Below, one piece after another: positions 37,869 through 47,386 of a stretch of 47,403 bases of DNA (the stretch's first letter is position 1; each line of letters begins with the position of its first letter). The notes under the pieces were generated by a model. It was not told the DNA's origin, did no database searches, and saw only the letters and a list, made by a program, of their open reading frames with translations. Source of the stretch: Gemmatimonadales bacterium. GTDB lineage: Bacteria; Gemmatimonadota; Gemmatimonadetes; Longimicrobiales; Gaopeijiaceae. The stretch covers positions 1 through 47,403 of the forward strand of contig REEG01000135.1 in assembly GCA_007695195.1 (NCBI GenBank), written 5' to 3'. Position numbers and translations under genes: made by a program.

Positions 37869-39887
37869 ATGCCTCCACACGTCCTCCCTCGCCCTCTCCG
37901 GGCCGGCCCTCTCCGAGCCCACCCACTCCGGGCCAGACCCCGACGCCAGGTGGTCCCCCTCCTGGGCACCCCCCTCCTGGCCATCATCCTCCTGGCCGGG
38001 TGCGCCGGCTCCCTCCATCTGGCGGAGAGCGACCACCCCCGGGTCCTGGCCCACCAGGCCATCGCCGGCGACAGCCCCTCCACCCCCGGCCCCTGGGAGG
38101 TAGGCTTCCTCACCTACGGGAGCGGGACGGACCGGCAGCGCCCCGAATACGCCGAGGGCGTGGCCTTCACCACCACCAGCGTCGACGCCTCCCCCTTCGC
38201 CCGACGCACCGAACAAGCCCGCTTCTGGCGCCGCTACTGGGGGTTCGACGAGACCGAATTTCCGCGGAATGGCCGGGTCTGGTATCCGGAAGGCGAAGGC
38301 CCCTTCCCCCTGGTCCTGGTGGTGCACGGGAATCACGACCCCCGCCGCTCCTCGGATCGGGGGTACGCGTACCTGGGCGAGCTCCTGGCGAGCCGCGGGT
38401 TCATCGTCACCTCGGTGGACATGAACTTCCTGAACGGCCGCATCCGGGGCGAGAACGACGCCCGGGGGTGGATGCTCCTGAAGCACCTGGAGGCGTGGGA
38501 AGGGTTCACCGCCGACCCGGACAACCCCTTCCACGGAAAGGTGGACTGGGACCGCATCGCCCTCATGGGGCACTCCCGGGGAGGCGAGGCGGTGGGGCAC
38601 GCCGCCGCCTTCAACCAGCTCCGGCACTACCCCGACGACGCCGCAGTCACCTTCGACTTCGGCTACCGGATCCGGTCGCTGGTGGCCATCGCCCCGGTGG
38701 ACGGACAGTACCTCCCCGCCGACCGGCCCGTCCCCCTGGAAGACGTGAACTACCTGGTCTTCCACGGCTCCCACGACGGCGACGTGACCTCCTTCGCCGG
38801 GCTCCGCCAGTACCAGCGCGTCTCGTTCACCGGCGAGGTGCCGGCCTTCAAGTCGTCGGTATACGTCTACCGGGCCAACCACGGCCAGTGGAATACCGGG
38901 TGGGGTCCGCTGGACAGTGGCCCCCGGAGTCCGCGCATCCTCCGGCTGGACGGCCTCCTCCCCATGGAAGATCAGCTCGAGTTCGCTCGGGTCTGGATCA
39001 CCGCCTTCCTCGAGGCCACCCTCCTGGGCGAGGAGCGCTGGCTCCCCCTCTTCCGGGACCACCGCACGGCAGGGGAATGGCTCCCGCCCACCATGTACAA
39101 GACCCGCTTCGAGCACAGCACGTTCGTCCCCCTGGCCGACTTCACCGAGGACATCGACCTCACCACCGGCACCACTCCCGGGGTCACCCTGGAGGGCGAG
39201 GGGCTCTCCACCTGGCGGGAGGGAGAGCTGGTCCTTCGCTCCCGGCTGACGGCGCAGCAACAGCGTTCCCAGGAAGCCCGCGCCGTGTGGCTGGGCTTTC
39301 ATGGCTCGGAGGAAGGGCAGGAGCGCGCCGCGACGCCCCCTCCCCGGTGGACCGTGCGGCTGGACGAGGGGACTGCGGCCCAGGTGGGGATGGGCCTCGG
39401 CGCCACCCTGGACTTCGTCATGGGCGCCACGGAACGCCGACCCGGACCGGCCGACGAGGACGACGAGGACACGGAGACGCAGGAGGCCGGGAACGAGCCG
39501 GATCAACCGGCCCCCGACGCCACCCCGGAAGGCCCCCTGGACCTATCGGTGGTCCTGGTGGACGACGCCGGAAGCGTCGCCTCCCTTCCCCTCTCCCACT
39601 TCGGACCGCTCCGGAAGCCGCTGGAGATCCGCATCCTCCGGCGCTCCGACCTGGAGGCGGACCGCTTCCCCACCCTCCACGAGGTGGTGGGGCACCACTT
39701 CTCCCTCCCGCTGGACGAGTTCGTGGCGGTGAACCCCTCGCTTCGTCCGGACCAGATTCGGGAGATCCGCCTGGAGTTCGACCGGACCAGGGTGGGCGAG
39801 GTCTGGCTCACCCGGCTGGGGGTGAGCCAACCCGACGACGGCTTCCTGCAGCCCCGGGTGCCCGCAGGCGCCAACGGAACCCCGTAG
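37869..39887 (+). CDS. Alpha/beta-hydrolase lipoprotein with C-terminal beta domain
   Basis: This 672-residue protein has an Arg/Pro-rich N-terminus followed by a lipobox (LLAGC, Cys 45), so it is probably anchored in the envelope. The hydrolase part (about 110-400) keeps the oxyanion segment VVHGNHDP, nucleophile S236 in MGHSRGGE, acid D303 in HGSHDGD and H338 in RANHGQWN. The shape resembles platelet-activating-factor acetylhydrolase or chlorophyllase-like esterases. Residues about 420-660 form a beta-rich region with an acidic low-complexity insert (around 525-555). It diverges from the blaI/M56 pair and may be one of its targets. The substrate is unknown. The start lacks a clear ribosome binding site. 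Confidence 0.8.
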   Translation: MPPHVLPRPLRAGPLRAHPLRARPRRQVVPLLGTPLLAIILLAGCAGSLHLAESDHPRVLAHQAIAGDSPSTPGPWEVGFLTYGSGTDRQRPEYAEGVAFTTTSVDASPFARRTEQARFWRRYWGFDETEFPRNGRVWYPEGEGPFPLVLVVHGNHDPRRSSDRGYAYLGELLASRGFIVTSVDMNFLNGRIRGENDARGWMLLKHLEAWEGFTADPDNPFHGKVDWDRIALMGHSRGGEAVGHAAAFNQLRHYPDDAAVTFDFGYRIRSLVAIAPVDGQYLPADRPVPLEDVNYLVFHGSHDGDVTSFAGLRQYQRVSFTGEVPAFKSSVYVYRANHGQWNTGWGPLDSGPRSPRILRLDGLLPMEDQLEFARVWITAFLEATLLGEERWLPLFRDHRTAGEWLPPTMYKTRFEHSTFVPLADFTEDIDLTTGTTPGVTLEGEGLSTWREGELVLRSRLTAQQQRSQEARAVWLGFHGSEEGQERAATPPPRWTVRLDEGTAAQVGMGLGATLDFVMGATERRPGPADEDDEDTETQEAGNEPDQPAPDATPEGPLDLSVVLVDDAGSVASLPLSHFGPLRKPLEIRILRRSDLEADRFPTLHEVVGHHFSLPLDEFVAVNPSLRPDQIREIRLEFDRTRVGEVWLTRLGVSQPDDGFLQPRVPAGANGTP

Positions 39888-39988: not shown

Positions 39989-41077
39989 CTACCGGAACCG
40001 GAGGGCCACCCCGTGGACCCGACCGCCGTCGGACCGGGGACGCACGCCGTACTCCAGGGTGAAGCTGTCGCCCAGGAAGGCGCCGCCCATGCTCCAGGGC
40101 GACGTGCCGACGCGGCGACCGCTCTCGAGCCCGGCCCGGCCCACGAAGGTCCGCCCCGCCACGGGCCACCACCCCACCTCCACCCCGATCCCGGCCCGGG
40201 GCCGGTACCCCTGCCGCACCGTCAGCCCCCCCATGGCGGCCACGTCCAGGGGACCCAGCGGCGTGGCCGTGGTCCCGAACCCGGCACGAGCCCAGCGCGG
40301 ATGAAGGCGATCACCCGAGGGCGGAAGCTCCAGCGACGGTCCCAGCCCACCCCCCGACACCCCCAGCGTCACCGGACCCACCTCGGCGGCCACCCCCAGA
40401 TCCAGATGGGCGGTGGCGTCCCGCGCCTCTCCCCGGCGTGCCTCCATCCCGGTGAGGGCGGCCCCCACCCGAATGCCCTTCACGGTGCGTCCGAGCCCGG
40501 CGGTGACGGCGCCCACGGTGGTGCCTTCCCCCCCCGGAGCTCCCTCGACTCCGTCCACTCCACCGGCCGCGGCGCCCCCGTCCCACACCCGCACCCCCAG
40601 CCCAGCCCCACCTCCCCACCACGCCGTGGCCGCCGCCATGGAAAGCCAACCCACTTCCGGATACAGGCGACCCGCCGCCACTCCCGAGCCCCGGGCCCGC
40701 TCCACCAGGGCCGGATTCCCGAAGAGGAGATCGGGATCCCGGTCCGCCAGGGGGAGGGCACCGCCCAACCCGAGAGAGCGGATGGAGGGAGGCACCCCCG
40801 GATCACCGGTGAGCTGAGCCCCACCTTGTACCGGCACGAGAAGGGCCGGAACCGTGACCACAAGCGCCAGGACCACCCCAAGGAGCGGAATGGCGGAGCC
40901 CTCGGAAACGGCCGGAGCGGCACGGGAACCAGCTCGAGCGGGGCGGCTCAACCGGTTGAGCCACCAGCACCGGACCCTGGACAGAGGAGGTAGAGAAGGC
41001 ATGAGGCCGTTGTCTGGAGGAAGGGAGGACCGGGATGTGAGAACAGGGGCCCGAGCGGAGAGGCCGGTGGGACTCAC
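39989..41077 (-). CDS. Predicted outer-membrane beta-barrel protein
   Basis: A 362-residue protein with a hydrophobic signal-like segment (about 62-85, ending at VQGGAQ) and then Gly-rich amphipathic strands to a C-terminal Phe-Arg. The start of the mature part (RSLGLGGALPLADRDPDLLF) resembles PorV/FadL-like barrels, where a Gly-rich region precedes a short Asn-Pro motif (here GNPAL). GTG 41077 overlaps the stop of the AI-2E transporter gene by 4 bp, so coupling favours it, though ATG 41002 gives a shorter leader. It is the last gene of a six-gene minus-strand operon. The 100 bp beyond it, towards the convergent hydrolase gene, hold no clear terminator. Confidence 0.65.
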   Translation of the reverse strand: MSPTGLSARAPVLTSRSSLPPDNGLMPSLPPLSRVRCWWLNRLSRPARAGSRAAPAVSEGSAIPLLGVVLALVVTVPALLVPVQGGAQLTGDPGVPPSIRSLGLGGALPLADRDPDLLFGNPALVERARGSGVAAGRLYPEVGWLSMAAATAWWGGGAGLGVRVWDGGAAAGGVDGVEGAPGGEGTTVGAVTAGLGRTVKGIRVGAALTGMEARRGEARDATAHLDLGVAAEVGPVTLGVSGGGLGPSLELPPSGDRLHPRWARAGFGTTATPLGPLDVAAMGGLTVRQGYRPRAGIGVEVGWWPVAGRTFVGRAGLESGRRVGTSPWSMGGAFLGDSFTLEYGVRPRSDGGRVHGVALRFR

Positions 41078-42207
41078 GGGAGAATGGCGGTCCCGGGCGA
41101 CTCCCCATCCGGTGGGTCCAGCGTGAGCCGGGCCATCTCCATGAGGGTGAGGGCCGTCACGAAGAGGACGGGACCCACAAAGATGCCGACTCCGCCGAAG
41201 ACCACCAGTCCGCCCAGGACGCTGAAGAATACCACCAGGGGGTGCAACTGGGCGCGGTTCCCCACGAACACGGCCCGAAGGACGTTGTCCACCGATGAGA
41301 TCACCGCGAGCCCCAGGACAAGGAGGGCCAATGCCTTCCAGGGCGAGCCCGCCACCAGCAGGATGATGCTGGCGGGCATCCAGACCAGAAAGGGACCGAT
41401 CACCGGGAGAAGAGAGAGGAGCCCCATGATCAGTCCCCAGAGCGCCGGCGCCGGAAGACCCAGGGCCCAGAAGGCCACTCCGCCCAGGATGCCCTGGACC
41501 ACGGCCACCAGGAGTGAGCCGAAGACGGCCGCGAAGCTGACCTCGGCGGCCCGGGACATGAGACGCTCCGTCAAGGTGCGCTCCATGGGGATGGCATCCT
41601 TGAACTTCTCGGCCAGGGCGTCGCCGTCACGAAGAAGGTAGTAGATGGTGAAGAGGGCGGTGAGGGTCTGGAGAAACCAGCCGCCAAGCCCCGAGAAGAG
41701 GCCCAGGGTACGGGTGGCCAGCGTACCGGCCACCTCCCGCGCCTGATCCGTGAGGTTGGCGGTGACCTCCGCGGGATCCATTCCGATCCGGTGGGCAAGG
41801 TAATCGATCCAGAGATAGGCCCGTCCCCCGGGTTCCAGGGCCTGGCTCGCCGCCGCCGCCACCAGATCGATCCCGATTCTGGCCTGGTGGAAGAGGATGA
41901 GGGAGATCCCCAGGACGGGGAGCAGCACCATGAGAAAGAGGACGGCCGTCCCCACAATGGCGGCCAGCGCCGGCCTGCGCACCCATTCCCGGAACGGGTG
42001 ATAGGCGGGCCAGGCCAGGGCCACCACTACCAGACTTGTGAGGATGGCGGGAAGGAAGGGTCGCAGCATGGTGCCCACCAGAACCACGCCTCCCAGGGCC
42101 AGAACCGCCAGGAAGACCCGCCGGAGACGATCCGCATCCGAGGCCGGGACCACCCCCCGGGCCTCCGCCCCCTCCTCGCTCCCCTGAACCTCCGGTGGCT
42201 TCCCCAT
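41074..42207 (-). CDS. AI-2E family transporter (PerM/YdiK-like)
   Basis: A 377-residue polytopic inner-membrane protein with about eight hydrophobic segments. Family features are the paired helices at about 32-75, the GLPAPALWGLIMGLLSLLPVIGPFLVW segment (key motif LPVIGP near 275) and the LHPLVVFFSVLGG stretch near the C-terminus. Members are trimeric or pentameric and include an autoinducer-2 exporter, Na+/H+ antiporters and proteins of unknown cargo. It lies 3 bp after the unknown 343-residue gene and is coupled to the barrel gene. The cargo here may be the product of the ATP-grasp enzyme of the same operon, which is inference. Confidence 0.88.
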   Translation of the reverse strand: MGKPPEVQGSEEGAEARGVVPASDADRLRRVFLAVLALGGVVLVGTMLRPFLPAILTSLVVVALAWPAYHPFREWVRRPALAAIVGTAVLFLMVLLPVLGISLILFHQARIGIDLVAAAASQALEPGGRAYLWIDYLAHRIGMDPAEVTANLTDQAREVAGTLATRTLGLFSGLGGWFLQTLTALFTIYYLLRDGDALAEKFKDAIPMERTLTERLMSRAAEVSFAAVFGSLLVAVVQGILGGVAFWALGLPAPALWGLIMGLLSLLPVIGPFLVWMPASIILLVAGSPWKALALLVLGLAVISSVDNVLRAVFVGNRAQLHPLVVFFSVLGGLVVFGGVGIFVGPVLFVTALTLMEMARLTLDPPDGESPGTAILP

Positions 42208-42210
42208 GCC

Positions 42211-43242
42211 CTACCCGCTGCTTCCCGACGACGACGGCTCGGGCACCTCCGTTCCGAACCCGCCGGCGGCTGAGCGTCGATAATCCTTGGGCGAGAAGCG
42301 CGGGCGCCGTGCCGAGCCCTGGAAGGGCCGCGGCCGGAGCTCCGGATCCCACACCGGAACATGCTGGATCTCGATTCCGCCGGTGAGGAGCTCCGAGAAC
42401 CATTCCACCAGATCCGCCAGCGGCACGTGGGGCCCCGCCGCCGGCGCGTCGGGTCCCTCCTCGTCGCCGGCCCACCCCAGATAGACCACCCGCCCGATCC
42501 CGGCATCCCGCAGTACCCGGGGCGTGGGGAGGATGGAGTCATCCAGGTAGTAGCGGTTGTCGAATTCACCCGGGCGCCCCTTCCGGGTCCCCAGCCGCAT
42601 GGCATCGCAGACCCACAGAGGCGGCGCATCGGTGGCCAGGCGCCCCCGGGCCTCGGCCAGCGTCGACGCCCAGCGAAGCAGCTCCGCCACCAGGAGGTCG
42701 GCAGGAAGAAGTGCCTTGGGGTGGGGCCAGTGATCGAAGGTGCACACCGGCTGCGCCTCCCCGTCGGCCACGAGCCACGCTGCCGCCTCCACCGCCGCCC
42801 GCCCCGGCAGGTCCACGACGCACAGCGTCCCGGGCTCGAGCCATCCCGGCGCCGGCGCCCCGGGTCGGGCGTGTCGAGGGAGGAGGAAATCCCCGTCGGG
42901 CCTCACGGGAGTCGCCCCGGCCGAGGACGCTCCGGCCCGCTCCGCAGTCTCGAGCCGGGTCCGTTCCGCCTCCACCACCGCCTCCGGTGTGGGTCCGATC
43001 CGGCGTCGATCCATCCAGTCCACCGAGGCGAAGAGGGGGATGGCATGGTACGGCTCCCAGGGACTCCCCTGGAGAGGACCCCACACCTGGAAGAGGGGCT
43101 CGCTCCGGGCAAAGGCCTGCCAGTCCCGTCCACCCCGGGCGTCGGACGCCTGGGGATCCCCGGCCGTGCGCCCCTTCACCAGTCGGATGGGGAGCCGGAG
43201 CCGGCCCAGGGCCTCAAAGAAGTTGGACCACCGTTGCCACAT
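42211..43242 (-). CDS. Protein of unknown function in the ATP-grasp operon
   Basis: I do not recognise this 343-residue soluble protein. It has no signal peptide or membrane segment. Alternating hydrophobic strands and helices (TLCVVDLPGRAAVEAAAWLV near 135-155, LWVCDAMRLG near 215-225, GRVVYLGWAGDEE near 255-268) suggest an alpha/beta fold. FDNRYYLDDSILPTPRVL (about 231-248) may be a conserved motif. The C-terminus is Ser/Gly-rich. ATG 43242 is chosen because GAGG lies seven bases before it; ATG 43254 is possible. Either start overlaps the end of the ATP-grasp gene by 29-41 bp, which argues strongly for joint translation and function. Confidence 0.75.
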   Translation of the reverse strand: MWQRWSNFFEALGRLRLPIRLVKGRTAGDPQASDARGGRDWQAFARSEPLFQVWGPLQGSPWEPYHAIPLFASVDWMDRRRIGPTPEAVVEAERTRLETAERAGASSAGATPVRPDGDFLLPRHARPGAPAPGWLEPGTLCVVDLPGRAAVEAAAWLVADGEAQPVCTFDHWPHPKALLPADLLVAELLRWASTLAEARGRLATDAPPLWVCDAMRLGTRKGRPGEFDNRYYLDDSILPTPRVLRDAGIGRVVYLGWAGDEEGPDAPAAGPHVPLADLVEWFSELLTGGIEIQHVPVWDPELRPRPFQGSARRPRFSPKDYRRSAAGGFGTEVPEPSSSGSSG

Positions 43243-44476
43243 GCAGCGCCTCATGGGTGAGGAAGGGTCGGGCCGCGGCCCGGGAATAGTATCCGGCGAA
43301 ACGCCCGTTCACCACGAAGGCCCCGAGAGTCGGGAAGAGCGACCCTGCTCCGAACTCCAGGGGGGTCACCTGGAAGCACTCCTGGAGGCACCACTCGGCG
43401 GGCTTCGCCTGCGCCTCCTTCAGGGCTTCGTCCCAGACCTTCGGGGTCACCAGCGAGCCCATGATCACGGCATCTCCCATGCGACCGAAGGCCCGCTTGA
43501 GCACCCAGCGGGGCTGCTCGTCCCGCCACCGGGAGATCCCATCCGCCTCGAAGGGCAGAGTCCGGGGCGCATGGGCATCCAGGAGGGCCAGCGTTTCCGC
43601 ATCGTCGGCCATGACCTCGCGCCACACCTCGAAGACCTTCTTGCTCTGGCGGACCATGTGGCGGAGGGGGTTCATCATGGGGAGCCGGGCGCCCATCCGT
43701 CCCCAGGTCCCGAAGTTGGGGAGGCGGGGCATCCACTCGCCGGGGTAGAAGCGGAAGGCGCCGTCCACGGGCGTCCCCAGGATCCGGGGCCGACCCGACC
43801 ACCCCCGGGTCAGGTGGGCCGGGGAGCCCCGCACCGTCCGGTGGCCGGCCTCGGTGAACCACCGGTCCAGGATCAGCATGTGCTGCAGATCCTCGGAGAA
43901 GGCGGTGGCGTAGAGGAGCCCCACCGTCTCGGCGTCGGCGAAGGCCGTCACCAGCGCATCCCGAAGCCCGGCCTCCCACCGGCACCCCGGCCCCGGATCT
44001 CCCATAAGGTGGGGAAGCCCCACCGTCTCGTTGAACCCCCCGGGGACATCCTCGTTGAACTCGGACACCATGAGGCGCCCGTCGTCGCAGGGGAAGAGGT
44101 CGTAGCGGGCACACTGCAGCGTCCGCTGGGGCTCCCGGGCCAGGAGGGGGTGCAGGGGACGGGGAATCCCCAGCCGATCCAGGATCGCCACATCGGCGTG
44201 GACCCGGTCCTCGAAGCGGGAGAGGGCCGCCGAAAGCCCCTCCACCGCTGCCACCACCTCTCGGTGCAGCGCCTCGGGCACCACCATGACCTCGGGGATC
44301 ATGGTGAAGTGTCCGGCGGAGTACGTATCCCACTTGAACCAGTCGAAGCGGAGGGCCCGGAGGAGCTCGGATCGCTCCGCCTCACCCAGCCCCCAGGGCC
44401 GGGTGGAAAGTCCCCACCGGTGCGCCGGGGTCGCGGGAGGTGGCGCCACCCCCGACGGGCTCCCCGACGGGCTCAT
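43214..44476 (-). CDS. Glutathionylspermidine-synthase-like ATP-grasp ligase
   Basis: A 420-residue enzyme of the circularly permuted ATP-grasp group, which joins a carboxylate to an amine with ATP. Visible family features are RYDLFPCDDGRLMVSEFNED (about 136-155) with acidic metal ligands followed by PGGFNET, the nucleotide-binding WVLKRAFGRMGDAVIMG (about 332-348) and the acidic LQECFQ. It resembles the ligase half of glutathionylspermidine synthase and E. coli YjfC, without an amidase domain. The start ATG 44476 overlaps the upstream stop (ATGA). The DUF350-like membrane protein encoded just before fits a known YjfC-type association. The substrate is unknown; conjugation of a peptide to a polyamine is one possibility. 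Confidence 0.78.
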   Translation of the reverse strand: MSPSGSPSGVAPPPATPAHRWGLSTRPWGLGEAERSELLRALRFDWFKWDTYSAGHFTMIPEVMVVPEALHREVVAAVEGLSAALSRFEDRVHADVAILDRLGIPRPLHPLLAREPQRTLQCARYDLFPCDDGRLMVSEFNEDVPGGFNETVGLPHLMGDPGPGCRWEAGLRDALVTAFADAETVGLLYATAFSEDLQHMLILDRWFTEAGHRTVRGSPAHLTRGWSGRPRILGTPVDGAFRFYPGEWMPRLPNFGTWGRMGARLPMMNPLRHMVRQSKKVFEVWREVMADDAETLALLDAHAPRTLPFEADGISRWRDEQPRWVLKRAFGRMGDAVIMGSLVTPKVWDEALKEAQAKPAEWCLQECFQVTPLEFGAGSLFPTLGAFVVNGRFAGYYSRAAARPFLTHEALHVATVVQLL

Positions 44477-45363
44477 CCTCCCGGCCCCAGGAAGATGTTC
44501 AGGACCCGGTTGGCACCCCACGCCGCCAGGGCGAGCCCCAGGTAGACCAGCCCCTCGGTGGCTCGGGCACCGGCGGGGCGCCCCACCGCAACCGCGCCCC
44601 CGGACGCCCCGGCTCCGGCCCCGTCGGGAGCCTCCGCAGACCCGCCGGCCCCGGCCCGAGCCACCCCCAGGAAGACCTCGTGGGCCAGGAGGAGCCCCGC
44701 CAGCACCCCGAAGGTGAGGAGCCCATGCCGCCACCCCCAGAAGTCACCGGCCACGGCGTCGGTGAGGGGAATGGCAGCGGCCAGGAGGAAGAGGGCGGCG
44801 GCCCGGCCGTCTTCCGGATCGTGGGTCCGGCGCAGGCTCCCGGAGGTTCCGGGGAACCGCTTCCGCTCCCGCCGCAGCCAGATCCGGAAGGCCATCACCA
44901 GGGCGATCCACCCCATGAGGAAGAAGCCCCAGACGATCCACCACCCCCCCTCGTCGTCGCCCACCGGATCGGCATCTCCCCAGAGGCTCCCACCGAAGAT
45001 GAGGCCCGTGGCCAGGACGAAGGCGGCCATCACCAGTCCGGCCACGGGATTGCGGCGCTCCAGAACGTCGATCCGGTAGCGAAGGCCGGTGATGCGGGAC
45101 CCGGCGTGGCCGAAGAGCTTCACCGCCGCATAGCCCAGCACCAGGTAGAAGAGGACGTAGACCCCCCGGACGCTGTCGTCGGCCCAGATCAGGCAGACGA
45201 GCCAGATCCAGAAGAGAGACGCCAGCACCGCCGCCCGCACCAGCCCCGGTCCGGGATTGCCCCGGAAGTAGAGGCGGTGCATGGCCGCCTGCATGGTCCC
45301 GATCCACGCCCCCACCATGGCCACGAAGGCGACAATGAGGATCAGGACCTCCGATTCATCCAT
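44473..45363 (-). CDS. Polytopic membrane protein, DUF350-like
   Basis: A 296-residue protein with about eight predicted helices (near 6-24, 43-61, 66-84, 107-127, 141-160, 187-203, 214-235 and 271-291). The segment around ERRNPVAGLVMAAFVLATG (102-120), a charged turn with Asn-Pro leading into a helix, resembles DUF350, a family often encoded next to YjfC-type ATP-grasp ligases. An Ala/Gly-rich loop (about 236-268) precedes the last helix. The start ATG 45363 overlaps the M48 gene stop by 8 bp, and the ATP-grasp gene overlaps its end by 4 bp. The family call is by eye. Confidence 0.6.
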   Translation of the reverse strand: MDESEVLILIVAFVAMVGAWIGTMQAAMHRLYFRGNPGPGLVRAAVLASLFWIWLVCLIWADDSVRGVYVLFYLVLGYAAVKLFGHAGSRITGLRYRIDVLERRNPVAGLVMAAFVLATGLIFGGSLWGDADPVGDDEGGWWIVWGFFLMGWIALVMAFRIWLRRERKRFPGTSGSLRRTHDPEDGRAAALFLLAAAIPLTDAVAGDFWGWRHGLLTFGVLAGLLLAHEVFLGVARAGAGGSAEAPDGAGAGASGGAVAVGRPAGARATEGLVYLGLALAAWGANRVLNIFLGPGG

Positions 45364-47386
45364 TCGCCTCTCCGTCGGTTGTTGACGCGATCGACCCGAG
45401 GGGTGGAAGGGGCACCTCGAGCGCCTCGCCCAAGGCCCGAAGGAGCTCCGCTTCTTCCGGGCCCACGCGACCGTCCCACTCCACCACCGCGGCGGCCGCT
45501 TCCAGGAAGCCACGCTTGGCTCCCGGGGCCGCCATCTCCAGCGCCGTGAGGGAGGCGTCCACCATCCCCAGGCCCAGATCCCCCGCCGATGTCAGTCCGC
45601 CCCGGCCCCCACCGCCGGGGAGCCTCGCCGCCCCTGCCGAGAAGGCGTCGGCCGCCGCCTCCGGCGCCCTTCCTCCGGCATGGGCCAGGAGCGAAAGGAG
45701 AATCCCAGCGGGCTCCGTGAGGCCATCGAGCCCCTTGCCCCCGCCTCTCCGGCCGCCGGGCTCCCCCTCCACCTCCACCGGAAGATTCCGGCGAACCAGA
45801 TGGAAGAGGGCGAAGAGGAAGGGATCCACCGAGCCGCCCCGTCCCCTTTCCAGCAGCTCGGACAGGGTATCCCGAAGAGCTCGGGCTCGCTCCGCCGGGA
45901 GCCCCCGAAGCCCTGGAAGCGCCAGCTCCAGGAGGGGAAGGCGGAGCTCCCGGGGAGCCGAGGACGCCCAGGTCATCACGTCGTCGGAGCCCCTCAGGAC
46001 CCGATTGCCCAGGCGGCGCCCCACCACCTCCGCCGGATCCCCTTCCTTCCCCTCACCTTCGGGTCGTTCCACCCCCGCCAGGACCAGCCCCACCACCGTT
46101 CCCAGGGCTCCCTCCGGGGTGCGGACCTGACTGCGGATCTCGTCGGGGAGGGCGCCGAGAATCCGCCTGGCTTCGGCCACCTGCCCCGGTCCCAGCGTCC
46201 CGGCCGAGGCGAGGATCCCCCCCAGGATCATGGCACCGGGGAGGCCGCCGGCAGCACCTGACTCCCGGCCCTCCATGAGGTCGCGGATGGGGTCCCGCCG
46301 GGAGGGCCGGCTCGCTTTCCTCCCCGACCCCCGGACCTTGGGCGCCGGGGGGACGTCGTAGCTCCCGTCCCACGTCGGCTGCACCCTCCGGATCCGCTTC
46401 TCCAGCGGCGGGTGGGTGGCCGTCATCCCCGAGAGGGCCTTCCGGCGCCCCGACGCGAAGAAGAAGTGGCTCGCCTCCTCGGCGTGGGAATCCTGGAGGC
46501 GCGATCCGTGGGCACCGGCGCCGATCCGCTTCAGGGCGTTGGCGATGCCGTCGGGGTTCCGGGTGAACTCCACCGCCGCCGCGTCGGCCAGATACTCCCG
46601 CTGGCGCGACACGGCGGCCTGGATGAGGCGCCCCACCAGGACCCCCAGATAGCCCAGGACCACCAGGGCGATGCCGACGGCCGCGATGGCGCCGGCCTGC
46701 CCTCCCCCTCCCGAACTCCGGCCCCGGCCCGACCCCATCCCTCCCCGGAGGACTCCGCGCCCCACCACCGTCAGGAGGAGGATCCCGAAGAGGAGGCCCA
46801 TGAGGCGGATGTTCAGGCGCATGTCGCCGTTCAGGATGTGGCTGAACTCGTGGGCCATGACCCCCTGGAGTTCGTCCCGGGTGAAGGCGTCCAGGGCGCC
46901 TCGGGTGACGGCCACCGCCGCGTCGTTCAGGGTGTGTCCGGCGGCGAAGGCGTTGATGCCGGGCTCCCGGTCCATGATGAAGACCTCGGGAACCGGAACC
47001 CCCGAGGCGATGGACATCTCCTCCACCACATTCATGAGTTGGCGCTCCTTGGGATCCCGGGTGCCCGGATCCACACGGCGCCCCCCCAGGAGCTCGGCCA
47101 CCGCCGCGCCTCCCTTCCGAAGCTGGCTCGTGCGAAAGGCGGTGCCTCCTCCGATGAGGACGCCCATCCCCAGCGTCACCAGGACGAAGAGGCCGGGGTC
47201 GAAGAGCCGGGCCGGGGAGGCGGGACCGGGGGTCACTCCCGGCTCGGCCGACGCCCCGGCAACGCCCAGTGCCACCGCCGCCACCAGGTAGACGCCCAGT
47301 ACCAGCCCCACTACCGCCAGCACATAGAGGGCCACCAGCTTCCTGGACAGTCCCCTGGCCTCGTCCTGGACCTCGAAGAAATTCAC
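45356..47386 (-). CDS. M48 membrane metalloprotease with TerB-like C-terminal domain
   Basis: A 676-residue protein. Helices near 17-45 and 65-82 precede an HtpX-like zinc protease domain with HEFSH (about 179-183), two further helices (about 192-213 and 233-258) and a third metal ligand in REYLADAAAVEFTR. The second half is cytoplasmic and helical. Its final 60 residues (VVEWDGRVGPEEAELL, then PLPPLG) look like a TerB domain. Long M48 proteins of this type usually follow a lemA gene, which may lie just right of the window. The start is GTG 47386 with AGGAG upstream. It is the first visible gene of the six-gene operon and may act in membrane-protein quality control. Confidence 0.88.
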   Translation of the reverse strand: MNFFEVQDEARGLSRKLVALYVLAVVGLVLGVYLVAAVALGVAGASAEPGVTPGPASPARLFDPGLFVLVTLGMGVLIGGGTAFRTSQLRKGGAAVAELLGGRRVDPGTRDPKERQLMNVVEEMSIASGVPVPEVFIMDREPGINAFAAGHTLNDAAVAVTRGALDAFTRDELQGVMAHEFSHILNGDMRLNIRLMGLLFGILLLTVVGRGVLRGGMGSGRGRSSGGGGQAGAIAAVGIALVVLGYLGVLVGRLIQAAVSRQREYLADAAAVEFTRNPDGIANALKRIGAGAHGSRLQDSHAEEASHFFFASGRRKALSGMTATHPPLEKRIRRVQPTWDGSYDVPPAPKVRGSGRKASRPSRRDPIRDLMEGRESGAAGGLPGAMILGGILASAGTLGPGQVAEARRILGALPDEIRSQVRTPEGALGTVVGLVLAGVERPEGEGKEGDPAEVVGRRLGNRVLRGSDDVMTWASSAPRELRLPLLELALPGLRGLPAERARALRDTLSELLERGRGGSVDPFLFALFHLVRRNLPVEVEGEPGGRRGGGKGLDGLTEPAGILLSLLAHAGGRAPEAAADAFSAGAARLPGGGGRGGLTSAGDLGLGMVDASLTALEMAAPGAKRGFLEAAAAVVEWDGRVGPEEAELLRALGEALEVPLPPLGSIASTTDGEANG

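Follow-up and report, generated by a model that had tools for sequence, protein, structure and literature searches.

The far end of a 47,403-base contig (C265; hereafter the window, meaning the whole stretch of DNA analyzed) from a Gemmatimonadales genome that is 96.4% complete carries a compact operon in which the gene of a divergent GspS-like ATP-grasp ligase overlaps that of an orphan protein ending in a GGFG...G tail. We consider it probable that these two proteins form a divergent tail-ligase system of the type represented by ygiBC and yjfLMC in Escherichia coli, in which the ATP-grasp enzyme would join an amine to the C-terminal glycine of the orphan. At the level of sequence, this reading draws on the layout of the operon and its conservation in relatives, on retained catalytic residues, and on a shared tail that is under selection. 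The features of the operon, all on the minus strand, are as follows.

45356..47386, minus strand: M48 (HtpX-like) membrane metalloprotease with a probable C-terminal TerB-like domain, 676 residues (Pfam PF01435, 108.1 bits; motifs and hydropathy)
44473..45363, minus strand: DUF350-like integral membrane protein, 296 residues (PF03994, 29.5 bits; hydropathy; alignment)
43214..44476, minus strand: divergent GspS-like ATP-grasp ligase, 420 residues (PF03738, 46.9 bits; residue mapping; tree)
42211..43242, minus strand: orphan, a soluble predicted carrier protein of 343 residues (no family match; orthologues; hydropathy)
42214..42279, minus strand: C-terminal tail of the orphan, RRSAAGGFGTEVPEPSSSGSSG, predicted substrate of the ligase (tail survey with control; selection on the tail)
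41074..42207, minus strand: AI-2E family transporter (PF01594, 155.1 bits), outside the conserved system
39989..41077, minus strand: putative outer-membrane barrel (no family match in Pfam or NCBIfam), outside the conserved system

Organization and conservation of the operon

The M48-TerB and DUF350 genes overlap by 8 bp, the DUF350 and ATP-grasp genes by 4 bp, and the ATP-grasp and orphan genes by 29 bp, so that the overlaps of 4-29 bp previously reported among these four genes are confirmed by the coordinates. The AI-2E gene begins 3 bp after the orphan, and the barrel gene overlaps it by 4 bp only if translation starts at GTG 41077; with ATG 41002 as the start, a gap of ∼70 bp results. Convergent to the operon lies the gene of a 672-residue α/β hydrolase (37869-39887, plus strand), with weak matches to PETase and chlorophyllase families of ∼30 bits, just over the cut-off.

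The ligase and orphan were found together in two of 298 Gemmatimonadota genomes, the window's own included, and on three contigs from GTDB. All five genomes (the window, L007, L008, L009, and G093) share the order M48-TerB, DUF350, ATP-grasp, orphan, which argues that the arrangement in the window is not due to chance, and the 29-bp overlap between the ATP-grasp and orphan genes is kept in L007 and L008. The contigs of L009 and G093 break inside the M48 gene, so the stretch compared starts within it. A LemA gene is located directly upstream of M48-TerB in L007 and L008, and in G093 a separate contig carries the rest of the M48 gene with LemA upstream of it. As the window contig ends 17 bases upstream of the M48 gene, its LemA is probably missing merely through assembly. 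A further M48 peptidase gene, divergently oriented, is found just upstream of LemA in two relatives (L007:3184-4242 and L008:3117-4256).

Five genes make up the conserved unit: LemA, M48-TerB, DUF350, ATP-grasp, and the orphan. It excludes AI-2E and the barrel, neither of which was found near the operon in L007-L009. In L007 and L008 the orphan is followed by a DUF3667 gene in convergent orientation, in L009 by a convergent open reading frame of similar appearance, and in G093 by a different gene. The earlier note had described six joined genes and made the idea of one system depend on their occurring together in relatives: the joining holds in the window genome alone, but the contacts of AI-2E and the barrel are not conserved in relatives, and the six genes are rarely together, whereas a four-gene core plus LemA is maintained. 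The view of the exporter and barrel as parts of one system is consequently not supported.

The nearest relatives retrieved for the window genome are Gemmatimonadota, and isolate codes of some of them bear on habitat. The codes LCM1 (L008) and PLM2 (L009) are taken here to denote mats of two soda lakes in Canada (Last Chance and Probe Lake; for these mats, see PMC6748926), and the CSSed code of L007 suggests Kulunda soda-lake sediment; the source bacterium appears to be of a soda-lake type.

The ATP-grasp ligase retains ten mapped catalytic positions of Gss

The window ligase matches GSP_synth (PF03738) with 46.9 bits against a Pfam cut-off of 29.3. It is ∼17-20% identical to YgiC, YjfC, and Gss of E. 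coli, occupies a long branch of its own in the tree, and has YjfC (7uk6, E = 1.4e-4) as its sole match in the PDB. Residues equivalent to Arg316, Asp318, Glu330, Asn332, Glu391, Lys498, Lys533, Arg538, Gln568, and Arg598 of Gss are kept in all five window-type enzymes; we take Arg316, Asp318, Glu330, Asn332, Lys498, Lys533, and Arg598 to be ATP/Mg-binding and catalytic positions. Ser335 and Ser337, located in the substrate pocket of Gss, are replaced by Val and Gly. Both YgiC and YjfC are annotated as peptide--spermidine ligases, and the window enzyme is likewise predicted, from its residues, to act as a peptide-amine ligase. The conjugate-forming chemistry proposed earlier is thus supported, as a reading of the sequence.

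AlphaFold2 modeling of the ligase with only four sequences gave a pLDDT of 39.5, too low for a structure search, and no match to the window-type ligase was found on plasmids. A separate and very divergent ATP-grasp protein (L029:1288-2646) occurs in G226, a genome of the same family; a rough tree places it with the window clade, and no tail-bearing neighbor was seen.

The orphan protein and its conserved tail

The orphan has no match in Pfam (E = 0.1), NCBIfam, PHROGs, PADLOC, or plasmids. Membership of DUF1190, the family of YgiB and YjfM, was rejected at the same E of 0.1, and a defense function of the orphan or operon was set aside as PADLOC gave no match. An orphan profile run against the 298 genomes gave matches in G093 and the window genome; a marginal fragment at E = 0.007 was the sole further match and was discounted; orthologues are present in four other genomes in total. 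Neither a signal peptide nor a lipobox was found: hydropathy at the N terminus peaks at 0.19, and cysteines occur only at positions 141, 167, and 212. The AlphaFold2 model reached a pLDDT of 40.4, again too low for a structure search.

The description of this protein as unrecognised therefore stands as far as families are concerned, but it overlooked the C-terminal GGFG...G tail typical of the partners of GspS-like ligases. The C terminus RRSAAGGFGTEVPEPSSSGSSG, or a close variant, is present in all orthologues and is their most conserved segment, with 17 of 25 columns invariant (68%) compared with two of 22 (9%) in the preceding linker. When genomes are compared, synonymous differences affect 6-11 of the 17 codons in the tail, and two to three codons change the residue. 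Other candidate tail-bearing proteins in the window genome were weak matches, none of which held up as tails.

Tails of this type accompany GspS-like ligases

A GGFG-type, Gly/Ser-rich tail on a protein encoded within two genes of the ligase, as seen for the orphan, recurs widely beside GspS-like genes. The general form is (S/R)RGGFG...G, and the strict pattern was defined as [RKSA][GQA]G[FYW]G near the C terminus with a final G, S, or A. A neighbor with the strict tail was identified in 31 of 36 cellular and plasmid loci, with five failing, a figure that is descriptive because the pattern was written after the tails had been seen and many loci are related. As a control, two of ∼1,310 other open reading frames from those loci carried the strict tail. 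All 14 canonical Gemmatimonadota loci include a neighbor ending in RGGFG...G/S, and among plasmids tails were found in Vibrio, Rhizobium, Sulfitobacter, Methylobacterium, Pseudomonas, Sphingomonas, Pseudarthrobacter, Acinetobacter, Asticcacaulis, and Roseomonas, a spread that covers Proteobacteria and Actinomycetota. The tails of YgiB and YjfM, encoded beside YgiC and YjfC in E. coli, are also among those that match. Deinococcus has a near-variant, SRGGLTSTARGALSSGG, and looser Gly/Ser tails occur in Brevibacillus, Trichormus, and one Bacillus plasmid. The terminal residue is not always glycine, being Ser or Ala in some tails. By a simple test, a hydrophobic stretch together with a lipobox-like motif is present in 25 of the 30 tail carriers other than the orphan. 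One Roseomonas plasmid (L040:4926-7276) encodes two tandem GspS-like ligases, a DUF350 protein, and a tailed DUF1190 protein.

The four phage loci comprise clear tails in T4-like phages of Aeromonas and Acinetobacter, a looser Gly/Ser tail in a Pseudomonas phage, and no tail at the DSS3_VP1 locus. In the Aeromonas, Acinetobacter, and Pseudomonas phages phiAS4, Lazarus, and NoPa (L083, L084, and L085, respectively), a lipoprotein encoded close to the GspS-like ligase bears the Gly/Ser-rich tail, which has the GGFG form in phiAS4 and Lazarus.

Among the plasmid loci, that of Azospirillum (L041) alone lacks a Gly-rich tail neighbor altogether, and its ligase (L041:5016-6167) has lost at least six of the mapped residues: Asp318, Glu330, Glu391, Lys498, Lys533, and Arg538. 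Judged by these losses, it is possibly a pseudoenzyme, and the joint loss fits a link between tail and catalysis, as a single case. No tail protein was found in the stretch of genes examined around E. coli Gss; as this enzyme acts on glutathione, its lack of a tail partner is counted in favor of the tail-ligase model.

M48-TerB, LemA, and the DUF350-like protein

The M48 protein contains HEFSH at residues 179-183, REYLAD at 263, and four hydrophobic segments, thus combining an HEXXH motif with a downstream Glu. A TerB profile matched five of six M48 homologues (best E = 1.3e-6), with the window protein itself below the reporting level. Full-length M48-TerB homologues occur in other genomes of the phylum with no ligase set nearby, and the window genome has a second LemA and M48-TerB pair (G000:C200:22046-24422), in which a single in-frame TGA interrupts the region matching M48. 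The M48-TerB module is thus more widespread than the ligase set, and its role in the window operon is a matter of conjecture.

The DUF350-like protein has seven hydrophobic segments above threshold, and its match of 29.5 bits exceeds the Pfam cut-off of 26 (the L008 homologue, at 24.3 bits, is just under). The DUF350 assignment on which the earlier note had made its proposal conditional is thereby supported, as is, by the family matches of both proteins, the pairing of a DUF350 membrane protein with a ligase of the YjfC type.

Candidate donor amines

Neither a PF01564 spermidine synthase nor AdoMet decarboxylase was found in the window genome or three relatives, and a search for nspC gave nothing over the cut-off in the window genome or G093; a weak nspC match looks, on inspection, like diaminopimelate decarboxylase. 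Spermidine made by the cell itself was rejected as the donor on these grounds. Arginine decarboxylase (SpeA) is clearly present in the window genome, at 782.8 bits. Because the synthases were not found and SpeA is present, agmatine, putrescine, or an imported amine appear as likely to be the donor as spermidine.

Proposed mechanism and alternative explanations

In the proposed mechanism, the ATP-grasp enzyme would recognize the tail of the orphan (GGFG...SSG-COOH), ATP would activate the carboxylate of the terminal glycine, and this would form an amide bond with an amine, most likely a polyamine; the orphan is thus probably the substrate of the ligase, judging from the tail. The DUF350 protein, placed in the inner membrane, would be a partner of either the ligase or the modified orphan. 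LemA and M48-TerB may be an independent membrane quality-control pair that has joined the operon, and their part may be to dock the modified orphan, to process it, or to remove it. Several points weigh against the model. The body of the orphan shows no sequence relationship to DUF1190, and the orphan is soluble, whereas the known carriers are for the most part lipoproteins destined for export. The spermidine genes searched for were not found, so that spermidine may not be the donor; the ligase is distant from the characterized enzymes and differs from Gss at Ser335 and Ser337; and the tail pattern, set after the tails had been seen, is failed in its strict form by five loci. A cytoplasmic location is expected for the ligase, and with a soluble carrier the tail is then likelier to have a ligase-related role than a periplasmic one.

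The same tail could instead be a docking or regulatory motif, with the ligase acting on a small molecule and the orphan serving as a non-covalent partner or sensor. Co-occurrence of tail and ligase alone cannot separate a substrate from a docking site, and those tails that end in Ser or Ala would suit docking; a final G or GG is very common among the tails, however, which is what a carboxylate acceptor of the GspS type should have (Gly is also the last residue of glutathione), and the E. coli homologues are reportedly peptide-spermidine ligases, so that we regard docking as rather unlikely. It is less likely still that the operon reflects ordinary co-transcription, with LemA/M48-TerB as one unit and the DUF350-ligase-tail set as another, unrelated one under a common promoter: the M48-TerB homologues found elsewhere without a ligase nearby and the second copy on C200 would suit such an arrangement, but the joined order with overlapping genes persists in five genomes, with orphans down to ∼55% identity. 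In the model of the earlier note, the operon would produce a small conjugate of a peptide or an amine, AI-2E would export it, and it would serve at the outer membrane together with the barrel. This is very unlikely: the 3-bp gap between orphan and AI-2E and the close packing of the barrel in the window genome speak for it, but neither gene was found near the operon in L007-L009, and the orphan is followed by a convergent gene in L007 and L008 and by another gene in G093.

A bolder extension of the tail-ligase model, which we offer tentatively and would not expect to hold, is that the GGFG...G tail marks proteins for conjugation at the C terminus and can be passed from one protein to another, as a bacterial analogue of the C termini of Pup or ubiquitin-like proteins. 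GspS-like ligases would then attach amines to any bearer, the signal would in this lineage have left exported lipoproteins for a soluble carrier, and M48-TerB would be its processor or eraser.

Comparison with known systems

Operons of DUF350, DUF1190, and GspS-like genes have been linked to PspA and polyamine genes (Ravi 2024, PMC11237479); neither M48 nor HtpX appears in that text, and the section on these operons makes no mention of a tail. A search of the open literature, which did not take in the key biochemical work on YgiC and YjfC (Pederick 2023, doi 10.1021/acs.biochem.2c00592), yielded no publication dealing with their partners' RGGFG tail; if Pederick 2023 used the YgiB/YjfM tail, the idea of the tail is known for E. 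coli and only the window variant is new. According to Sui 2012, as cited in PMC12506659, YgiC does not make glutathionylspermidine, although glutathionylspermidine synthase is the annotation given to GspS-like genes of many bacteria and phages. A tail shared by otherwise dissimilar neighbors provides a concrete candidate substrate for these ligases. The window system is informative here in that its carrier is not a lipoprotein and the tail is kept without export, which suggests that it works with the ligase in the cytoplasm rather than in the periplasm.

In E. coli ygiB-ygiC, as in the window, the gene of a GspS-like ligase adjoins that of a protein ending in a GGFG...G tail (YgiB). Unlike the orphan, which is soluble and belongs to no family, YgiB is a DUF1190 protein with a lipobox, and the E. 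coli pair has no DUF350, LemA, or M48-TerB. The yjfIJKLMC operon (PspA-linked DUF350/DUF1190/ATP-grasp) shares with the window a DUF350 protein, a ligase, and a tailed protein, YjfM, which ends in SRGGYGRSSSARGHWGG; in contrast, the window unit has no PspA, YjfI, or YjfK among its conserved genes and includes LemA/M48-TerB, a longer DUF350 protein, and a new carrier. The ligase itself has the PF03738 ATP-grasp domain and the ten identical active-site positions in common with E. coli Gss, but is ∼18% identical to it, has no fused amidase, and differs at Ser335/Ser337 (Val/Gly). Lastly, window-type loci resemble known pairs of LemA and M48 (HtpX-like) genes in having LemA directly upstream of M48-TerB, and differ from them in the added ligase set, without which M48-TerB is also encountered elsewhere in the phylum.
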